Part shown: positions 52,268 to 64,000 of the stretch, in pieces | Layout of the letters: every line of letters begins with the position of its first letter | Numbering within the stretch: the first letter of the stretch is position 1 | NCBI GenBank assembly: GCA_930367215.1 | Contig: OV884057.1 | Location: 260,232,339-260,296,338 of the forward strand | Direction of reading: 5' to 3' | DNA from: Pollenia angustigena | Taxonomy: Eukaryota > Arthropoda > Insecta > Diptera > Polleniidae | DNA: 64,000 bases | Notes under the pieces: generated by a model | Seen by the model: only the letters and a program-made list of their open reading frames with translations | What the model was told of the DNA's origin: nothing | The model's database searches: none | Translations under genes and position numbers: made by a program

Positions 52268-52961
52268 TTCAAAATACATAGTTTTCTTTTTAATTTTTGC
52301 CAAGTAAAAATGCGATGTTTTATGTAAAACGAACTATTTATTAGTAAAAAATAAAGAAATAAATATCACAACTGTGGTCGATTATTGAGATAATTTTATA
52401 TTTTTAATGTTTTTTGGGACACCAGCATGTACAACCAAACTCAGTTTTGCTTCACATTGTCCAAAACGGCCAAGCTGAATAATATGGCTTATTATATGGT
52501 CAAAGCTCTCCATGCGCTTTGCCATTTCTTGTGCATTTGTGACAACTTTTTCTCTTACACCAATCCTTTAACAACGCTCACATGAAATAAAATTGACTCA
52601 TGATTGGAGATCCTTCAGGTAAACAATGTAAATTCCTGGCATACACCATGGCAGCATCCAAAGCATTAGTAAGAAGGCCTCGGCTCTTTTGTATAAAATA
52701 TAAAACATTCAACATTCTCTTCTATGACAACAGAGAAGAGAAGGAGTAACATTTGTTGTTATGTTTTTTCGCACAAGCAAAAGCAAACGAATTTTTTTTT
52801 TTTTTATCCCGTTACCCTTCTTATGTAACTGCAAGAGAAGCGAGAGCAATGACAACGTGTGCAAAATGATATGAGAGTGGAATAAAGCGAGCAAGCCTTG
52901 TAAAGGGCCAATTTTAAATATGAACCTCACCTTATTATGGCTTATTACACAGTACAACAGC
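52268..52961. other. Spacer left of the large DNA transposon
   Basis: AT-rich with a few GC-richer sentences (52400-52700) whose frames are broken; possibly an old transposase remnant, not identifiable. Confidence 0.35.
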
Positions 52962-52964
52962 CAA

Positions 52965-53078
52965 TCTGGGAGGTGAGAAATTCCAAGTCAGGGTGATGGT
53001 ACTAGGTCAGTTTAGTAAAACCCTCAAAGAGTTTGGCGTTAGTATGTGTCAGTTTTTTTTTATGACATTTTAAATTTT
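52965..53078 (+). repeat. Left terminal inverted repeat
   Basis: Starts TCTGGGAGGTGAGAAATTCC and runs to TATGACATTTTAAATTTT. Differs from the right repeat at about five positions (for example GGGAGG here against GGGGGG) and in the length of one T run. Confidence 0.9.
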
Positions 53079-55623
53079 TTCCTTATCTTGATGTTTTTTC
53101 GCTTAGTTGTAACATTTTGGCAAAAACGTAGATTAACTTAACTCGAGAACCACTTGTCCGATTTTGATGAAACACGTTTCTGTTTCTATACCGTTTTCCT
53201 ATATGTGCAACACTTTCGAAGTTAAAAATGAATGTATGAAGAAAAAAAATATTTTTTGCCCAAAAAATTTAAATTTTTTATTTTTGATTCATAAAAAATC
53301 CAAAACAGTAAAAAAAAGTTTCAAGTCCTATTACTTTCACGTGAAGTCGCATAACCTATGAAATAAATGAGACATAAATCATGAAAATCGATGAACGCGT
53401 TTCGCTTTTATTAACAATTAAGTGAAGGTATGCATTTCAAAAATTTGCTCGAGATATGCACAAAATTCTTTGCAAAAACATTTATGACTTTTTTTATGAT
53501 TCTTAGAATTAAAAAAAAAAAAAAGTAATAAACAAAAGGTTATTTGATTTTTATGATTGCGGTAGCAAAGTAATTAGCGGTAATAAATGTGCGTGGACAA
53601 TTGAAAGAAAAAAAGGAAAGTGCACTTTTTTAATTATTTGGGGTTTTCCGTTGGCTATCTGTATGATTTTTTTACAGAAATTCCACCCACATCTATTAGT
53701 GCTCATGTTTTGGAACGTACCTGTCAGTAAAATATTGAAAAATACGTAGTATTTATAGGTGTTCATTTATCGATTTTTGTCATTCAACAAGTGCCGACGA
53801 ACGCGAACAGTAAAAGTGATTTTTCTCCAGTTTTTTAAAAGTGAACAAAAGAGAACAGAATATGGAACTGTGCAAGCCAGATATAAATAGCTCTTGCTAC
53901 CGCTGTGGTCAATATGTCTCAACACATAAAAAAAGGGGAAATTTCAGTACTGATTTTATTCAAACATACGAGATGTACTTCAACCAAAATGTTATAGTGA
54001 ACGAAAATTGGGTACCAAATATAGTGTGTAAAAGCTGCTACAACCGTCTAATGGATTGGAAAAATAGAAGACGTGAAAGTATGCTATTCGGTATCCCAAT
54101 GACTTGGACTAATCCTGGCGAAGGTCACAATCCATTGAATTGCTATGCATGTGCGAATAAAGGAGCCGCAAAAAGGATAAGAAAATCGTATAACTACGTT
54201 GGTGTTGCAAGTGCCGCAACACCATTGCCTCATTCGGATCACATTCCTGTGCCAAAAGCTTCTAGCCCAGATATTTTCTCTTCTACGACTGCTCCGACAT
54301 ATCATGCACGTGATGATCCCCCATATGAGCCATCAGTATCCAATGAGCCAATTTTAATAAATCAAAATAAGCTTGATTCAATTGTTGCCAAGTTGGAATT
54401 AACACAGCATAAATCGGAAGAGCTGGCTTCCATTTTGAAATCAAACAATTTGTTGGCACCCGGTGTGAAAGTCACAGCTTATCGAAGTCGTCAGGCAACA
54501 CTCCAAAGTTTATTCCTTGTGAATGATGAAAATACTTCTGCATATTGCCCGGATGTAGGAATATTGATGGACGCAATGGAAATAAAATATGAAGCAGATG
54601 ACTGGAGATTATTCATTGACAGTTCAAAACTCAGCTTGAAGGCGGTTTTACTGCATAAGACCAATAAAAAACCTTCAGTTCCAATCGCCTATAGTACAGA
54701 AACGAAAGAAACATATGATGCACTGGAAAATATTTTAAAAATGGTTAACTACGCCAAACATATGTGGCGCATATGCTGCGATTTAAAAGTTGTAGCAATG
54801 CTTTGCGGTCTTCAAAGCGGCTATATAAAATATATGTGCTTTTTGTGCGATTGGGACACACGATTTTCCGGTGACCAATATGCATGCCACGGATGGAAAC
54901 TCAGAGAGCACAGTAGGTTACAAACGGCCAATATTGTTCGTGAGCCTCTAGTGCCGAAAAAGAAGATATTGCTGCCTCCACTGCATATTAAACTTGGAAT
55001 TGTTAAGAATTTTATCAAAACCAAAAGAGATGATGTTTTCTTGTGTTTGAAACTAATTTACCCGAGACTCAGCGAAAGTAAAATTAAAGAAGGTAAGTTA
55101 TAATATCACATTCATTTCCCATGATTTTCCATCTTAACAAATTAATTTTGTCCAATCAGGCGTACTAAATGGTCCAGATATACGAAAGCTGATTAAAAGT
55201 GACGCATTCAACAATATTTTGATTGACGCTGAATTGAATGCATGGCAGGCAATCAAAAAAGTAATAGAAGGCTTGTTGGGAAAGCATCGTTCTAACAACT
55301 ACGATGTTTCTGTCGCAAGGATGTTAAGAGCATTCTCGGAAATTGGTGTCCACATGTCCTTGAAAATCCATTATTTACATCATCATCTGGACTACTTCAG
55401 CTACCGAATCTGATGAACAAGGTGAACGCTATCATCAAGTTGCTATGCCATTTGAAATGAGGTAATACTGATTTTTTATTTTTTCAAACTCATTTTAATA
55501 AAACAAAAACTTACAGATATAGAGGCAAAAAGTCGCCGAGTGTAATAATTGCGGAAATTTGCTGGTGGAGTGAGCTTGTGTGGCATGACAAGGATGATCT
55601 TGATGATAAAGAATTTTCAGGAG

Positions 55624-55629
55624 ATGCAG
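55624..55629 (+). repeat. Target-site duplication, left copy
   Basis: ATGCAG precedes the 5' LTR and is repeated at 63294-63299 after the 3' LTR. The exact unit may be 4-6 bases, TGCA fitting the YRYR preference of errantiviruses. Removing the insert and one copy rejoins exon 3 in frame. Confidence 0.85.
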
Positions 55630-55937
55630 TGTTATAACCGCTAGAACATTTATATTATAAATGTTACATTTTTATACATGTATGTGTGTATGACAAATTT
55701 ATTACTAAACAAACGCAAGCCAACACACATACATCTATACTTTAAAATTCTTTATTTTCCAAATCGATTTTATTAAGTACTTAAAATTCTTGGAATTTTA
55801 AGTGTTACAACAAACTCTCGCTTGTTGAACTTTTATTGTCAAAATTTCAAAGAATTTTAAGTGTTACAACAAACTCTCGTTTGTTGAACTTTTATTGTCA
55901 AAATAATATTTCAAAGAATTTTAAGTGTTACAATAAA

Positions 55938-55974
55938 CTCTCGCTTAAATCAAAACTGATGATTTAAGCAAGAG
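55938..55974 (+). other. Hairpin in the LTR
   Basis: CTCTCGCTTAAATCA (55938-55952) pairs with TGATTTAAGCAAGAG (55960-55974) with one mismatch and a 7-base loop. It lies about 50 bases upstream of the TATA-like motif; role unknown. Confidence 0.7.
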
Positions 55975-56022
55975 TATGAACTTTTAGTATTAAGCAATAT
56001 TGTACCCTATTTTTTATTAAGT

Positions 56023-56056
56023 ATATAACATATTGATTTTAATAAAGAAGCGCAGT
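56023..56056 (+). promoter_or_regulatory. LTR promoter and poly(A) signal
   Basis: TATATAA at 56023-56029 precedes a possible initiator GCAGTAAGAAC at about 56051. AATAAA at 56041-56046 would serve as the poly(A) signal in the 3' LTR. The start site is inferred, not shown. Confidence 0.45.
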
Positions 56057-56136
56057 AAGAACTGGGCAGCATTGAACTGAACAACTTTCAAAGTGTTTTT
56101 TTTAATTTATTTCACAAAAGTATTCGGACATTTATT

Positions 56137-56152
56137 TGGCGCAGTCGGTAGG
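56137..56152 (+). other. Primer binding site
   Basis: TGGCGCAGTCGGTAGG, complementary to the 3' end of tRNA-Ser as known for 17.6, 297 and related elements. Its first base overlaps the last base of the LTR. Confidence 0.85.
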
Positions 56153-56230
56153 ATTCCGCGGAGTGTTATCCTTTCAGGAGAAAATAACTTGTTTCAAATC
56201 ATTGAATTAACGCGGTAACGTAAGTCCGTT

Positions 56231-56580
56231 CGAAAGATCGAAGGACGTGAAAAAAAACTTTTGTGAAATTTAAGTCTCTTTGAAAGATCAAAGGACACAA
56301 AAAACACTTATACTTTAAAAAGATTAAAAGTAGTTTTTTCGAATTTTTTTTTGTTTTGTGAAATCCTTCGAAAGATCGAAGGACGTGAAAAAAAAAACAT
56401 TTGTTAAATTTAAGTCTCTTTGAAAGATCAAAGGACACAAAAAAAAAACACATACTTTTAAAAGATTAAAAGTAGTTTCTTCGAATTTTTTGTTGTTTTG
56501 TGAAATCCCTCGAAAGATCGAAGGCAGTGAAAAAAAAAGAACTTTTTGTGAAATTTAATTGCTTTGAAAGTTTAAAAAAA
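56231..56580 (+). repeat. Tandem repeats of about 140 bp in the leader
   Basis: Two full units (56231-56368 and 56369-56510) and a partial third start with CGAAAGATCGAAGGACGTGA. Each also contains CTTTGAAAGATCAAAGGACA in the middle. Leader repeats in gypsy and Idefix act as insulators or regulatory sequences; the gypsy Su(Hw) site motif is not evident here, so a similar role is only a suggestion. Confidence 0.85.
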
Positions 56581-56769
56581 AAAAAACGTAAAGGAAAATA
56601 TTTCTAAATAGAAAAAGAAAGTAATTAAACTTAAAACGTGAAGAACATTCAATAAAAAGTTAAGAAGAAGAAGTTCAATAAAGGAAACAACCTCATAAAA
56701 AAAAAAATACAACTTTAACAACGAAGTCCTGCAACACCAACCAGAGGAAACGAGCAACTCCACTACAAA

Positions 56770-56775
56770 GTAAGG
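56770..56775 (+). other. Possible splice donor for the env mRNA
   Basis: GTAAGG after ACAAA in the leader is the best donor-like site upstream of gag. Errantivirus env is made from a spliced RNA, and the matching acceptor would be at 61286-61287. Inferred. Confidence 0.35.
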
Positions 56776-56859
56776 CGATTCTAAATTATTGTTATTTCAT
56801 TTCCACAAATTTTTTTTTATTATTATTATATTACCCTAAAACTATTTTTAAATGCATAA

Positions 56860-57048
56860 ATGCGTACAATTGAAAAAATTAATATAGAATCGGAGATAGA
56901 AAGAATTATATTATACACGCTTAAAGAAGAAGATATTGAAAGATTACAAAGCTTTTTACGCAAAATAACTTTAATAAAATTAAGAGCAAGGAAAAAATAT
57001 TCAAGAAATAAGAAAAATAATAATAAACAAAAATATATTAGAATTTAA
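56860..57048 (+). CDS. Small leader ORF of the errantivirus
   Basis: A 62-residue frame between the leader repeats and gag: acidic first half (EKINIESEIERIILY), lysine/arginine-rich second half ending in NNNKQKYIRI. It ends 40 bases before the gag ATG in another frame. It could be a translated upstream ORF or chance. The alternation of acidic helix and basic tail is more protein-like than typical chance frames, but I know no homologue. Confidence 0.35.
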   Translation: MRTIEKINIESEIERIILYTLKEEDIERLQSFLRKITLIKLRARKKYSRNKKNNNKQKYIRI

Positions 57049-57088
57049 TTTTTTAAACAGATTTACTGCTGCTCTGAATTTAGTAAAA

Positions 57089-58075
57089 ATGGTAGACGAA
57101 ATACGAAACCAACCCAATAGGCTAGTTATTGACCCACTTAAATATTTAAGTAACTTACCAGACTTCTTTGGAGACAGTAAAGATTTACAAAACTTTACAG
57201 CACTCATAGACAGAATAAATCCTCATTTAGAAACTTACGATGAGCTATCAAAACAACTTTTCTTGGACATTATAAAATCGAAATTAAAAGGTAAGGCCAG
57301 ACAGACTATAGAAATCAACTGTCATGCCACTTCCTGGACACAAATGAAAATTGTACTCCAGAATAATTTTGGAGATCGGCGTACCTGCGACGAACTCTTC
57401 GATGTTCTTCGAGCAACAACGTTCAAGACTAATACTGTAGAATTTTATAACGAAGTTAAGGATAAATTACACAGACTCAATAACAAAATTGTAATCATAT
57501 TAGGAGAAACAGACGCTGCTAGACAAAGTGCTAGAAATAACATGCAAACAGCATTAAATATATTTAAAAGTAAAATACCCGAACCAATGAAGACAATTCT
57601 TTTCTGTAGAAATCCAATAGACATAGAGGAAGCAATGGACATCTTATTCCAAGCAGGATATGCATATTCCAGCAATCCTGATAATCAAAAACACTTTACA
57701 CCTAGACACCAACAAACTCACAATAACGGCAACAATTACAATCGCGGTTCATACAAAAACTCTTCCCATAATCGACAAAATAACCAAAATAATTTCCATA
57801 ACAGTCAGAATTATAGGGAAAACCAAAGATATACTACTTACAACCAAAGACAAAACAACAGAAACCCAGTCCAACAACACTATGGACAAAGCAATGCACC
57901 CGATCTAAGACCCCAAAACCAATTTCACCGACAAAATATACCTAGGGAAAGCATTCAGTGGCACAACAACCACAACTTCCAACCAACACAACGACAGGAA
58001 CCTATGGACGTTAATGTTAACGTAATATCAGAAAATTTTCGGGACAGAGCCTCGGGAAGCAACTTCCACATATAA
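57089..58075 (+). CDS. gag: Errantivirus Gag
   Basis: 328 residues from ATG 57089 to TAA 58073-58075. The N-terminal two thirds look like an errantivirus capsid region: KYLSNLPDFFGDSKDLQNF near the start, then a predominantly helical part with WTQMKIVLQNNFGDRRTCDE and VEFYNEVKDKLHRLNNK. From about residue 200 the chain is dominated by Asn, Gln, His and Arg and contains no CCHC zinc knuckle, as usual for this lineage, where the basic Asn/Gln-rich tail is thought to bind RNA. The frame is fully open. The 3' end overlaps the pol frame by 55 bases and holds the frameshift site. Confidence 0.9.
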   Translation: MVDEIRNQPNRLVIDPLKYLSNLPDFFGDSKDLQNFTALIDRINPHLETYDELSKQLFLDIIKSKLKGKARQTIEINCHATSWTQMKIVLQNNFGDRRTCDELFDVLRATTFKTNTVEFYNEVKDKLHRLNNKIVIILGETDAARQSARNNMQTALNIFKSKIPEPMKTILFCRNPIDIEEAMDILFQAGYAYSSNPDNQKHFTPRHQQTHNNGNNYNRGSYKNSSHNRQNNQNNFHNSQNYRENQRYTTYNQRQNNRNPVQQHYGQSNAPDLRPQNQFHRQNIPRESIQWHNNHNFQPTQRQEPMDVNVNVISENFRDRASGSNFHI

Positions 58076-61000
58076 AAATAAAAACAAAATTAGGACATAT
58101 AAAATTAATAGTGGATACTGGAGCCACCAATTCAATAATTAACCCAGGAATTTGTCATCCAAAGTGGATACACCAAATTAAACCCCTTATAATTAAAACT
58201 ATTCAAAACGAAGTAAACGTAAAAGAAAAAGTAATAATTCCAGCATTCAAAGAATTTAAAATTACTGATAAAATGCTACAGTTTTATGTTTTAAAATTTC
58301 ATAACCATTACGATGGCCTACTAGGCAATGATATACTTAAAACATATAATGCTTGCATAAATTATGCAAATAATTCTATCCAAATAAATGGACAGAATAT
58401 ACCAATATTTTTTGACGATAAAAAAGAGATAAAAAGTAAATCAATTTTTTGTGAAGAACAGTACAACATTTCTAATAGGATGATCGCTACGCAGAAGGTA
58501 GACAATTATAGTAACAATGTGAAAGAATATAAAACCTTGGAACACCAAATTAGAACACAGCACCTTAATTCTGAAGAAAAACAACGTCTCTTACTACTTA
58601 TAAAAAAATATTCATCAATATTTTTCAAAGAAAATACACAACTTAGCTTTACAAACGCCATTAAACATAAAATTAGAACTATAAACGATGTTCCAATAGT
58701 CTCAAAATCTTATAGATACCCCTATATACACAAATTTGAAGTTGAAAGACAAATACAAGAGATGTTAGAAAGTAATATAATAAGAGATAGCAATTCGCCC
58801 TATTCCGCCCCAATCTGGATTGTGCCAAAGAAAGCCGATGCAAGTGGGGAAAGCAAATGGAGACTCGTCATTGATTATCGCAAATTGAATGAGATTACAA
58901 TTGACGATAAATATCCTATACCCAACATAGAGGAGATACTTGATAAACTGGGAAGATGCCAGTATTTCACAACCCTCGACCTCGCAAAAGGATTTCATCA
59001 GATTGAAATCGAAGAAGAGGATATTCATAAGACAGCCTTCAGCGTTGAAGGAGGTCATTATGAATTTTTGAGGATGCCGTTTGGGTTAAAAACAGCCCCA
59101 GCGACGTTTCAAAGATTAATGAATACAGTCCTTAAAGACTATATAAATAAGATATGCTTAGTATATCTAGACGACGTGATTATCTTCTCCACGTCACTAC
59201 AAGAACATTTGAATTCTATAAAATTAATATTTGAAAAATTAAAAGAAGCCAATTTAAAAATTCAGTTAGACAAGTCCGAATTTTTGAAAAAAGAAACAGA
59301 ATTTTTAGGACACATTGTTACAATTGAAGGGATAAAACCAAATCCAAAAAAAATTCAATGCGTATCTAACTTTCGAATTCCAACCACCGTAAAACAAATC
59401 AAACAATTTTTAGGTCTTACGGGTTATTATAGGAAATTCATTAAAGATTATTCAGCAATAGCGAAACCTATGACAAAATACTTAAAAAAGGATATAAAAT
59501 TAAATATTTCCGATCCAGAATATCAAAAAAGTTTCAATACACTAAAAACTTTACTCATTAATGAACCAATATTAGCATACCCCGACTTTACAAAGAAGTT
59601 TACAGTTACCACAGATGCTAGCAATTATGCATTAGGAGCCATTTTATCTCAAGACAACCATCCAATTTGCTATGCTAGTCGAACCCTTAATGATCACGAA
59701 ATAAACTATAGCACCATCGAAAAAGAACTACTTGCTATAGTATGGGCAACAAAATATTTCAGGCCTTACTTATTTGGAAGAAAATTCACTATAGAAACAG
59801 ACCACAAACCATTAACGTGGCTTTTTTCAATTAAAGAACCAAACTCTAAACTCGTGAGATGGCGTCTAAGACTTTCTGAATTTAATTATGATATAAAGTA
59901 TAAAAAGGGAACTAAAAACAGCAATGCCGACGCATTGTCAAGAATAGAAAACGAACCAATTAGTATAAACGTGATGAATTTAAGTGATACAACAATAAAA
60001 GAAACCCCAACAGCTATTAACCTATTTAAAAACCAAATTATTATAAAGAAGATAACGTCCGGATCAGTTAGAATAAGAAATAGGAATGTCTTTAAAAACA
60101 AAAGAAAAACTATCTTTATGAAAGAATTAGATAAAGAATGTGCTATCACTTTGCTAAAAACGCATTTTAATCCCACTCAACTAAATGCAATCTTAATAGA
60201 TGACGATTTTTTCCCTGTTTTCAAAGAGACGTTTGACGAATTGTTCTCAACTAATACAAATTTCAAAATAGTACGATGTTTCAATTTGGTAGAAGACATA
60301 GAAGATGAAGGAAAATTAAGTGAAGAAATAAAAATAGAGCACCATGATAAGAACCATAGAGGTATCACAGCAGTTTTTGAAGAGTTGAAAAACCGAATCT
60401 ACCATCCTCAACTTAAATTAAGAATAACTCAATTTATAAACAATTGTGAAGTATGCAACGTAGAAAAATACGACAGAAAGCCTCCTAAAGTACCCTATAA
60501 AATAACAGAAACACCCAACAAGCCTCGAGACATTATTCATATTGACGTTTTCTATACTTTACAAAAACAACTATTTCTGACTATAATAGACAAATTTACA
60601 AAATTCGCTTCAGCATTTAGAATTTGTGGAAGAACTTGGGTAGAATTTAAATCAAAACTTATTCAATACTTCTCAATATATGGTAAACCAAGAAAAATTG
60701 TTGCAGATAACGAACTCGGGTTTAAAGCAATCCCATTAGTACAATTTTTAAAGGATGAAAACGTTATAATACACTATACCTCCAATAGCAATCACACCTC
60801 GAATGCAGACATCGAGAGACTACATAATACCATTAATGAACATATTAGACTTTTGCGACATGACGAAAGAACCCACAACGAAACTATCGAAGATAAAATA
60901 TCTAGAATAATAGGGTTTTACAATAATGCAATACATAGTACTACAAAGGTAAAACCAATTGACTTCATAAACGGAAAAATCTCAGAAGAAGAATACCCAA

Positions 61001-61257
61001 AATTTTATGAACTAATACTACGAAAAAAAACTAAATATATTAATACATTAAACAAAGACAGGACTGATGTCGAAATAGAGAACGGAGAAAATTTTATTAA
61101 GGAAATAAGAGGCGGGAAAAACCACCGTAAGTATAGGAAAATTAACGCGACCAAAATAGATAATGAACACCTAAAAGAGAATAAAACAAATCTTAAATAT
61201 TACAAAACCCATGTTAAACCATTTAAAAAATTCCAGATTAGAGCAAACAATGCTTAG
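58021..61257 (+). CDS. pol: Errantivirus Pol (protease, RT, RNase H, integrase)
   Basis: Open in the -1 frame relative to gag from 58021 to TAG 61255-61257, expressed as a Gag-Pol fusion by frameshifting; there is no ATG at its head. Counting from the GTG at 58111 as 1: protease DTGATNS at 2-8; reverse transcriptase with VIDYRKLNEIT, TLDLAKGFHQI and the YLDD active site at 352-355; RNase H with TDAS (Asp 502), IEKELLAIVWA and TDHKPLTWL. Integrase has the zinc domain H745-D-K-N-H749 ... C779-x2-C782 and catalytic Asp 812 (IHIDVF), Asp 866 (VADNELG) and Glu 902 (DIERLH); the 35 residues between the last two fit DD35E. No chromodomain. All key residues are present and no stop interrupts the frame, so this enzyme set looks intact. 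Confidence 0.95.
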   Translation, partial: RNIRKFSGQSLGKQLPHIKIKTKLGHIKLIVDTGATNSIINPGICHPKWIHQIKPLIIKTIQNEVNVKEKVIIPAFKEFKITDKMLQFYVLKFHNHYDGLLGNDILKTYNACINYANNSIQINGQNIPIFFDDKKEIKSKSIFCEEQYNISNRMIATQKVDNYSNNVKEYKTLEHQIRTQHLNSEEKQRLLLLIKKYSSIFFKENTQLSFTNAIKHKIRTINDVPIVSKSYRYPYIHKFEVERQIQEMLESNIIRDSNSPYSAPIWIVPKKADASGESKWRLVIDYRKLNEITIDDKYPIPNIEEILDKLGRCQYFTTLDLAKGFHQIEIEEEDIHKTAFSVEGGHYEFLRMPFGLKTAPATFQRLMNTVLKDYINKICLVYLDDVIIFSTSLQEHLNSIKLIFEKLKEANLKIQLDKSEFLKKETEFLGHIVTIEGIKPNPKKIQCVSNFRIPTTVKQIKQFLGLTGYYRKFIKDYSAIAKPMTKYLKKDIKLNISDPEYQKSFNTLKTLLINEPILAYPDFTKKFTVTTDASNYALGAILSQDNHPICYASRTLNDHEINYSTIEKELLAIVWATKYFRPYLFGRKFTIETDHKPLTWLFSIKEPNSKLVRWRLRLSEFNYDIKYKKGTKNSNADALSRIENEPISINVMNLSDTTIKETPTAINLFKNQIIIKKITSGSVRIRNRNVFKNKRKTIFMKELDKECAITLLKTHFNPTQLNAILIDDDFFPVFKETFDELFSTNTNFKIVRCFNLVEDIEDEGKLSEEIKIEHHDKNHRGITAVFEELKNRIYHPQLKLRITQFINNCEVCNVEKYDRKPPKVPYKITETPNKPRDIIHIDVFYTLQKQLFLTIIDKFTKFASAFRICGRTWVEFKSKLIQYFSIYGKPRKIVADNELGFKAIPLVQFLKDENVIIHYTSNSNHTSNADIERLHNTINEHIRLLRHDERTHNETIEDKISRIIGFYNNAIHSTTKVKPIDFINGKISEEEYPKFYELILRKKTKYINTLNKDRTDVEIENGENFIKEIRGGKNHRKYRKINATKIDNEHLKENKTNLKYYKTHVKPFKKFQIRANNA
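58033..58039 (+). promoter_or_regulatory. Probable -1 ribosomal frameshift site (A AAT TTT)
   Basis: The heptamer AAATTTT is set in the gag frame as A-AAT-TTT, exactly the X-XXY-YYZ arrangement. Slipping back one base gives AAA-TTT-TCG in the pol frame, which is open from 58021 (after a TAA at 58018) through protease. It lies 34 bases before the gag stop. A clear downstream pseudoknot was not worked out. Confidence 0.75.
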
Positions 61258-61285
61258 ATATTGATTAACACGCACATATATTTTT

Positions 61286-61287
61286 AG
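61286..61287 (+). other. Probable env splice acceptor
   Basis: The AG of CATATATTTTTAG lies immediately before the env ATG at 61288. Env of this lineage is translated from a spliced subgenomic RNA. Confidence 0.45.
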
Positions 61288-62816
61288 ATGCAAACCTGGA
61301 CTATAATTTTCATCTTATTCACACCCATAAGAGCGCAACTACTGAACATCCAAGACTTGACAAGTAATAATGGTTACCTCCCAATCAAAGTGGACGAAGT
61401 TAAAACAATTGAACAATATAATAAAATCCTTCATGTAATCAACATAACGGCATATACAGACAGTCTTTACCTCTTACAGCAGAACATAAAAACAATAAAC
61501 AGCAGCCTTACTAAAACTAACCCCGAAACAAGCTCTCTACTTGATAGTATAACAAAAAACTATGAGATATTAAATGTAAAAATAAGTAACTTAAAACCGC
61601 ACTTCAGAGAAAAAAGAGGCCTTATTAACGTATTAGGAAAAGGGTTAAAATATATTGCCGGATCTATGGACAGCGACGACGAGACTCAGATAAACAATGC
61701 CCTCAATTCAATGAAAACTCAAGTAAATAATTTCACAACTTTTAATAATCTCATAAGTAATCAAATTAAGAATATTACTAATCACATCAACCAAAAACAA
61801 ATAGTAATCAGCACTTATTTCAATAAATTTAAAAACTTTCTTCAAAATAAAATTAGAGATTTGGAAGACGAATTTAGACTTATAAGCCACATATATCAAG
61901 TAAATAATGACATTACCCTTTTAAAAAACCATGTGGACGACATTGGCCAAATAATTTTTTCCAGCAAATTAGGAATAATCCCAACAGACATACTTACGAA
62001 GACAGAACTAGATTTAATTACCAGCTTTGATAGCTATACTAATATCAAAGTAGCAGTAATATTTGAAAATGAAAACATCGTTATAATTCTTTTAATTCCA
62101 CAATATTCAAATTCTGTACTGTCAAAAATTATATTTGAACCAATACCTAATTCAAAAAACAAATCTATATCACTTAAAAGTAACGGAGTACTTGTTAGCA
62201 AAAATAATAAAATATATGAAACAAATGTTAAAGAAAATCTAAAGAAAATTTAATACAGATTAATGATAATTGCTTAGAAAATATTGTTAATTTTGAAGAA
62301 GCCCATTGCAATATGACAACCATGGATATTACCAGTGTAAACGAAATAATACCAGGTATTCTAATATTTAAGAATTTTTATTCCAAAATAACACATAATT
62401 GTAATAATAAATATGACTTAAAAATAACGGGCACTTTTCTTATCAAATTCGAAAATTGTGAAATTTATACATTAGATAATAATTTTACAAATGTTAAAAT
62501 AAAATTATACGAAAATTTTATCTTACCCAATTTTATAACTAAAATAAAAGAAAACTCTAATACAACTTTTGCTGATTTAAAACTAGAAACTCTATACTTA
62601 GAGCAAATTAAATATGAAGAAACTATTAAAAAAATACTTTACCATAACAATAAATCAAAAATTATTAATATAAGCATTAATATAATAATAATACTTGCAA
62701 TTTTGATATTGATTTTAATTTTATTCTATATGAAACCTAAAAGTAAAGTTCTAATTTCGCCGGAGCCTCAATCTAACGGTGGGGGTGTTATAACCGCTAG
62801 AACATTTATATTATAA
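61288..62816 (+). pseudogene. env: Errantivirus Env, one frame break
   Basis: The first part (61288-62253, 321 residues) has an N-terminal hydrophobic signal-like segment ending near IRAQ, several N-x-S/T sites, a furin-type site REKR at 107-110 and a following GLINVLGKGL stretch that fits the fusion peptide of errantivirus Env. It then meets a TAA at 62251-62253. The second part continues in another frame, which is open across the break (from at least about 62220). Its first in-frame ATG is 62313, it has cysteines and N-glycosylation sites, a transmembrane segment at about residues 117-140 counted from that ATG, and a short basic tail, and it ends at 62816 inside the 3' LTR. A one- or two-base indel near 62225-62250 best explains this. 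As it stands the copy would give a secreted, tail-less Env. A sequencing error in this A-rich stretch cannot be excluded. Confidence 0.85.
62778..62785 (+). other. Polypurine tract
   Basis: GGTGGGGG immediately before the 3' LTR, the primer for plus-strand synthesis. The tract is interrupted by one T. Confidence 0.7.
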
Positions 62817-63293
62817 ATGTTACATTTTTATACATGTATGTGTGTATGACAAATTTATTACTAAACAAACGCAAGCCAACACACATACATCTATACTTTA
62901 AAATTCTTTATTTTCCAAATCGATTTTATTAAGTACTTAAAATTCTTGGAATTTTAAGTGTTACAACAAACTCTCGCTTGTTGAACTTTTATTGTCAAAA
63001 TTTCAAAGAATTTTAAGTGTTACAACAAACTCTCGTTTGTTGAACTTTTATTGTCAAAATAATATTTCAAAGAATTTTAAGTGTTACAATAAACTCTCGC
63101 TTAAATCAAAACTGATGATTTAAGCAAGAGTATGAACTTTTAGTATTAAGCAATATTGTACCCTATTTTTTATTAAGTATATAACATATTGATTTTAATA
63201 AAGAAGCGCAGTAAGAACTGGGCAGCATTGAACTGAACAACTTTCAAAGTGTTTTTTTTAATTTATTTCACAAAAGTATTCGGACATTTATTT
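62786..63293 (+). repeat. 3' LTR, 508 bp
   Basis: By direct reading the same as the 5' LTR over its full length, including the internal repeats and hairpin. The last codons and stop of env lie in its first 31 bases. Confidence 0.95.
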
Positions 63294-63299
63294 ATGCAG
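63294..63299 (+). repeat. Target-site duplication, right copy
   Basis: ATGCAG, matching 55624-55629; after it the coding sequence of the DNA transposon's gene resumes (GAAGGGCCAACAGTGGAG). Confidence 0.85.
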
Positions 63300-63545
63300 A
63301 AGGGCCAACAGTGGAGTCACACATTGACATTATGTGTGGTTCAGAAACTGATGATAGCGATGAATGCGATGCCATTAGTCCCGAACAACCACCATCGAAA
63401 AAGTCTAGGCAATATTTATTAAAATAAATAAAAATAAATAAATAAAAATAAAAAATTATAAAAATGTTTACTCAATTTTTTTAGTAGTTTATGGCCAGAA
63501 GTCTGGAGTTATTGGGGAAAATTTATAAAAAAGGCGATAAATGAC

Positions 63546-63658
63546 AAAATTTAAAATGTCATAAAAAAAACTGACACATACGAACGCCAAACCCTTTGAG
63601 GGTTTTACTATACTGACCTAGTACCATCACCCTGACTTGGAATTTCTCACCCCCCAGA
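63546..63658 (-). repeat. Right terminal inverted repeat
   Basis: Reverse complement starts TCTGGGGGGTGAGAAATTCC and matches the left repeat through ATGACATTTTAAATTTT. Confidence 0.9.
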
Positions 63659-63661
63659 CAA

Positions 63662-64000
63662 TAATCCCAAAAATGTTCCATAGTGTTATTAATATGGGCG
63701 TTCAAATCAAAATGCACATCGTGCACTTCGTGATTCAGTGATGAGGCACATTTTCACCTCAGTGGATTCGGCAATAAGCAGAGTTGCCGCATTTGGACGA
63801 ATGATAATCCAAGAGTGATTGTCGAAAAACCAATGCGCTCACAAGAGTGACTGTTTGGTGCGGCTTATGGGCTGGCGGCATCATCGGGCCGAATTTTTTC
63901 CAAAATACGGCCCGACCATCGGACGGAGGTGTACCGCCGAGGTCGCGGCGGCCATTTGGCCGATATTTTGTTCCATACATGATTGAACCATACCAATATT
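63662..64000 (+). pseudogene. Tc1/mariner-superfamily transposase relic, runs off the window
   Basis: In changing plus-strand frames one reads SDEAHFHLSGFGNKQSCRIW, then NPRVIVEKPMRSQE and, after frameshifts, pieces matching the VWCGLWAGGIIGPNFF block (plus about 63855-63900) and a following YR-containing region. SDEAHFhlsG with one catalytic Asp, and WCGxxAGGIIGPYFF, are conserved in this superfamily. The stretch is clearly GC-richer than the rest of the window, which suggests a younger or differently biased insertion. Several frameshifts make it non-functional; the ends of the element were not located. Confidence 0.75.

Follow-up and report, generated by a model that had tools for sequence, protein, structure and literature searches.

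We analysed a DNA transposon in a 64,000-nucleotide stretch of the Pollenia angustigena genome (hereafter the window). The element spans 52948-63685 (10,738 bp), starts with 5'-CAC, ends with GTG-3' and is flanked by TTA on each side. It carries a three-exon transposase gene, the third exon of which is broken by a retroelement (Table 1). The two ends of the element are unequal, as are those of related families in the same genome, and it is the meaning of this inequality that is considered below.

Table 1. Features of the transposon and of the retroelement inserted in it (window positions).
Feature	Position	Strand	Remarks
Left target-site duplication	52945..52947	.	TTA, preceded by A
Left 'short' terminus	52948..52964	+	CAC start, 17 nt ahead of shared inner repeat
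Left arm of inverted repeat	52965..53078	+	109/114 positions identical to right arm
Exon 1	53862..55092	+	N-terminal zinc (ZAD/Chapa-like) domain, two candidate catalytic Asp, C(2)C, LH
Intron 1	55093..55159	+	GT..AG, read directly; joined frame consistent with homologues
Exon 2	55160..55461	+	H(4)H, SDE.GE motif with candidate catalytic Glu; 11-bp deletion relative to L015
Intron 2	55462..55516	+	GT..AG, read directly
Exon 3, first part	55517..55629	+	broken by retroelement
Long terminal repeat (LTR) retroelement, not part of transposon	55630..63293	+	LTRs 55630-56137 and 62786-63293; protease, reverse transcriptase, integrase and Gypsy-env matches
Exon 3, remainder	63294..63427	+	retroelement's duplicated target bases, then exon 3 up to stop codon
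Right arm of inverted repeat	63545..63658	-
Right 'long' terminus	63659..63685	-	CAC start reading inward, 27 nt ahead of shared inner repeat
Right target-site duplication	63686..63688	.	TTA, followed by T

The initial annotation had taken terminal inverted repeats (TIRs) of about 114 bases for the ends of the element, with a single three-exon gene between them. The arms are real, and two GT..AG introns between them bear out the gene structure, but the gene is not alone within the span, as the LTR retroelement sits in its third exon. We fetched 5-10 kb around the places matched by the left arm and compared the flanks; similarity among copies continues beyond each arm and breaks off at CAC. The limits of the element given above follow from where this similarity ends, 17 bases beyond the left arm and 27 beyond the right arm, these being unique terminal bases outside the repeats. 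The 114-bp arm length is itself partly an artefact of the window copy: in L015, L022, L024 and L027 a further ~370 bp of inverted repeat (76-78% identity) lies between the arm and the 3' part of the gene, which the right arm directly adjoins in the window copy.

A search for further copies with the left arm, as the initial annotation had proposed, was made in the host genome (1.37 Gb, 31 contigs) and gave 92 candidates, 40 of which were scored, all at 96-100% identity. When up to one mismatch is allowed, the left-end pattern has 1,274 occurrences across the genome and its reversed control none, which, together with the 96-100% matches, excludes a chance origin of the arms. The fetched loci and the window contain 67 inner-repeat cores, which resolve into 28 end pairs, with 12 ends left unpartnered within the sequence compared. 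All 28 paired copies fit the end patterns with no more than four mismatches, the right end of L027 having lost its CAC. The consistent target duplication that had been looked for was also found: an exact 3-bp duplication flanks 25 of the 28 pairs (exceptions L015, L027 and L041), with A before and T after it in 27. Excluding the one in the window, the copies measure 685 bp to 3.9 kb, so that short derivatives of the non-autonomous kind are common. The ends indeed define the family. We consider it highly probable, jointly with the Chapaev3 explanation set out next, that this is a high-copy, cut-and-paste family and that the window copy is a defective member of it.

Chapaev3 (CMC/CMCT) was named in 2007-08. 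The termini of the window element are 5'-CAC..GTG-3', the 3-bp duplication is TWA inside A..T, and the transposase is about 550 amino acids (aa) long. In an alignment of 62 sequences CxxC and LH are invariant, and H(4)H is present in the rows reaching that far. The predicted fold is of the RAG1/Transib type with an RNase H core, its RAG1/Transib scores being far above a P-type match over the same range; the catalytic residues are assigned by motif, not by superposition. Published Chapaev3 transposons (Garfield, Merrow, Conan and Repbase families) are described in PMC4079192 as having the same CAC/GTG ends and a TWA duplication that A and T invariably flank; their transposase is 556 aa long and bears C(2)C, LH and H(4)H, and they have non-autonomous derivatives and a wide distribution in animals. 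Unlike the window gene with its three exons, Merrow and Garfield have two and most others one, according to that paper. Because ends, duplication, transposase size, motifs and predicted fold all agree, we assign the window element, with good confidence in the explanation as a whole, to Chapaev3, within the CMC/CMCT clade of relatives of Transib and RAG1. The annotated gene is thus well supported as the transposase of a DNA transposon by its ends, duplications, motifs and predicted fold. The assignment gives a name to a common protein family to which the database rows consulted attach no function.

Once the true ends are known, an asymmetry in spacing becomes visible, which the initial annotation, for that reason, could not have seen. 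Counting inward from the terminus, 17 bases precede the shared TCTGG at the short end and 27 at the long end, the shared inner repeat of the window element starting at positions 18 and 28, respectively. This 17/27 spacing is exact in 25 of the 28 pairs, the other three being without TCTGG on one end, and every pair (28/28) consists of one short (left-type) and one long (right-type) end.

Six other families of the same genome show a difference of 9-11 bp between their ends: after the CAC..ACA terminus, the inner repeat begins at a distance of ~20 bp at one end and ~30 bp at the other. In an ungapped offset scan (-40 to +40, first 12 bases ignored) the best registers were 10 (F1), 10 (F2), 10 (F3; 11 in a second copy), 9 (F5) and 11 (F6), and the register of F9 was 10; in F4 (locus C1:297.8) the 10-bp register was second-best, the best segment (14 bp) lying further in, after indels. 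The first 45 bases alone, at offsets of -5 to +24, gave registers of 10, 10, 10, 10, 9, 11 and 10 for F1-F6 and F9. The registers of F1-F6 were above those of shuffles preserving base composition only, although that of F3 was reached by 2 of 200 shuffles and that of its second copy by 5 of 200. By eye, TG at 20-21 and 30-31 recurs in F1-F6 and F9, exactly in five and one base off in F5 and F6. Among 16 loci with other Chapaev3 copies, nine have both ends and a duplication, one (C2:226.4) has both ends without it, and six have one end or none (C5:155.4, C5:210.6, C5:234.6, C5:30.9, C1:133.9 and C5:194.7). The 9-11-bp difference is clear in seven of the nine (L049, C2:158.5, L051, C1:297.8, C1:115.4, C5:67.3 and C2:95.6). 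The ends of these loci were found via TWA-CAC, and TWA is thus partly built in there and not an independent test.

In F2 and F9, six extra copies could be read at both ends. Each of them combines a short with a long end between matching 3-bp duplications (CTA and ATA in two of them); a seventh has one end seen. F2 looks recently active: 67 of 78 scored matches, from which five places were fetched, share the match range and a stop-free frame of 507-508 aa. The inverted repeats of F2 and F9 are ~475-630 bp long and 97-99.5% identical (629 bp and 99.5% in L051, an F2 copy), so the insides of these elements have evidently been homogenised, while their tips are still unequal. In both families copies differ in how the gene is oriented with respect to the short end (L051 versus C5:102.7; C2:95.6 versus C5:47.7); inversion between the repeats therefore seems to happen, with the short and long ends kept. 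Likewise, in one family L077/L078 and L088/L089 carry the gene cassette in opposite orientations with respect to the two unequal ends. These arrangements suggest that gene inversion stems from recombination between the long inverted repeats.

Two symmetric end pairs were also seen. One, L079 (200-2127), was chosen from the first 100 of the 1,274 places listed because two left ends faced each other there; it has the short end of the window family twice, in facing orientation, with 1.9 kb in between. C2:226.4 (L061/L062) has a symmetric pair with 163-bp arms that are 99% identical and run 9 bases into the flanks; it is partly F4 sequence and is perhaps a fold-back or rearrangement product. In both pairs one flank is TAA and the opposite one TTA, so that no duplication is present; this fits, but does not prove, transposition of unequal pairs only.

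Bipartite and unequal Chapaev3 ends look new: we found no account of unequal Chapaev ends in the open-access listings and paper passages searched, and the accessible part of PMC4079192 makes no mention of bipartite ~20/30 ends. The arrangement, in which a terminus is followed by a second element at one or the other of two fixed, unequal distances and a short end goes with a long one, has the architecture, though the architecture only, of the recombination signal sequences (RSS) used by RAG. It can be pictured as follows. The transposase core would cut beside the terminal CAC, while the N-terminal zinc domain, predicted to sit on a flexible linker ahead of the RAG1/Transib-type RNase H core, would hold the inner repeat, presented at ~20 on one end and ~30 on the other (12 and 22 bp beyond a terminus of 7 bp). 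A transposase dimer would then pair one short and one long end and insert the element at A-TWA-T. In this scheme the unequal spacing would be required for the reaction, and the division of the two DNA blocks between the two protein domains would be as just given.

We assign a probability of roughly 0.45 to the reading that Chapaev3 follows a 12/22 rule, its RAG1-like transposase pairing only short-spacer with long-spacer ends, such that the 12/23 logic of V(D)J recombination would be older than the Transib/RAG branch or would have arisen again in a sister branch. A number of observations weigh against the Chapaev3 explanation with its pairing scheme as a whole. Copies of one family inherit their ends, and the 28 of 28 pairs are therefore not 28 independent tests; similarly, all the families come from one genome, are related by descent and in some cases share end sequence, and are not independent. 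In cross-family control pairings (F7 included), 3 of 42 fell at 9-11 bp, with scores of 6, 13 and 15, the latter two from pairings between F4 and F6, both AT-rich. The duplication-bearing C1:212.9 departs from the spacing, its long end being without the inner block, and C2:245.8, at 11 bp, is no better than shuffles and hence unclear. This departure would suit the alternative that the elements are Chapaev3 but owe their unequal spacing to an ancestral indel, passively handed down to all families and serving no function, as would the sequence that F1 and F2 share beside the terminus (CAACAGCCA), which makes an inherited state possible. We nevertheless regard such an indel as unlikely, if by no means negligible. 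From one family to another the long-end spacers diverge in sequence past base 12 and yet keep their length within 1-2 bp; the transposases of F1, F2, F3 and F6 are 37-47% identical between families; the unequal tips of F2 and F9 persist despite homogenisation; and the gene flips its orientation whereas the pairing of short with long does not.

The placement in Chapaev3 draws on hallmarks and predicted fold rather than on comparison with a reference sequence. A sequence-only hhalign comparison of the transposase with RAG1 was not significant (probability 0.6%), with CxxC and LH nonetheless in register, and a profile search of PDB gave no significant link to RAG1, the N-terminal match to it being weak (E 1.1). 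Our search of viral contigs and genome contigs gave no confirmed relative and added no second species, and the bracovirus Chapaev3 copy reported in PMC4079192 did not turn up among the viral contigs. The initial annotation, which had put the group forward as a candidate undescribed one and had not been able to name its superfamily, had proposed a profile search and structure prediction against known DDE transposases; the former found no Pfam-A family above cut-off in three pieces of the window gene, whereas the latter pointed to RAG1/Transib. None of the 240 relatives listed has a functional name, and a text search of the literature for the protein motifs found no paper. The Pfam-A result, the unnamed relatives and the fact that Chapaev3 is known here by its published description would be expected of an undescribed superfamily resembling Chapaev3 on the surface only. 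We consider this very improbable, as CAC ends, A-TWA-T, motifs, size and a RAG1-like predicted fold all suit the published Chapaev3. Membership of hAT, P, Kolobok or KDZ is scarcely credible. The target duplications of hAT and P are 8 bp long, at odds with the 3-bp TWA, and the RAG1/Transib fold scores far higher over the same range, Kolobok and KDZ lying outside the direct comparison. In addition, PMC12730594 gives CxxC/H(3-4)H as characteristic of the CMCT clade.

Unequal ends of this kind have parallels elsewhere. The P element has its transposase-binding site at unequal distances from the two termini, differing by about one helical turn, as do the ends described here; it differs in its 8-bp duplication and THAP domain, and the P-type fold match to the window transposase is much weaker. 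With vertebrate RAG1 the transposase shares the predicted core fold and the CAC at the cleavage border, and in both systems the second element occurs at two distances that differ by roughly one helical turn (20/30 in these elements, 20/31 in the RSS). The nonamer is at position 20 in the 12-signal and 31 in the 23-signal (PMC8289069). Unlike in vertebrate RAG, the inner repeat of the window family is not the nonamer, no second gene is seen in the window element, and the duplication is 3 bp instead of the 5 bp of RAG. The N-terminal zinc domain precedes the core here, and the nonamer-binding domain lies outside the fold match; on its linker, the former may sit where RAG1 has its hinged nonamer-binding domain, a possible reason for the spacing. 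ProtoRAG and Transib share the RAG1-type transposase but have 5-bp duplications and different spacing, and their protein similarity to the window family is visible by predicted fold alone.

How the 12/23 rule arose is a matter of debate. Unequal 27/31-bp ends of ProtoRAG work best (PMC8289069). In the review PMC8355894, some Transibs are described as 12/23, and a Transib with such ends is proposed as the seed of the rule; its text gives amphioxus ProtoRAG (27/31) as the only asymmetric invertebrate RAG-like ends, and its figure legend also lists oyster. An abundant but distant group whose transposase is of the RAG1 type and whose ends are 20/30 provides natural families for a direct test of the rule, apparently recent ones given the shared match range and stop-free frame of F2.

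The window copy itself is disabled twice over: exon 2 has lost 11 bp relative to L015 DNA, with which the open frame of L024 agrees there, and exon 3 is interrupted. The insert is a Ty3/gypsy-like element with an env-like (Gypsy/Baculo_F) frame that recently inserted into the transposase gene; it is 7.7 kb long, with identical LTRs of 508 bp and a six-base target duplication, and the transposon copies L015 and L024 are without it. To the right of the transposon, 63690-64000 reads as a fragment of what we take to be a Tc1/mariner-like transposase from the motif WCGLWAGGIIGPNFF, and the transposon may thus have inserted beside or into another transposon.

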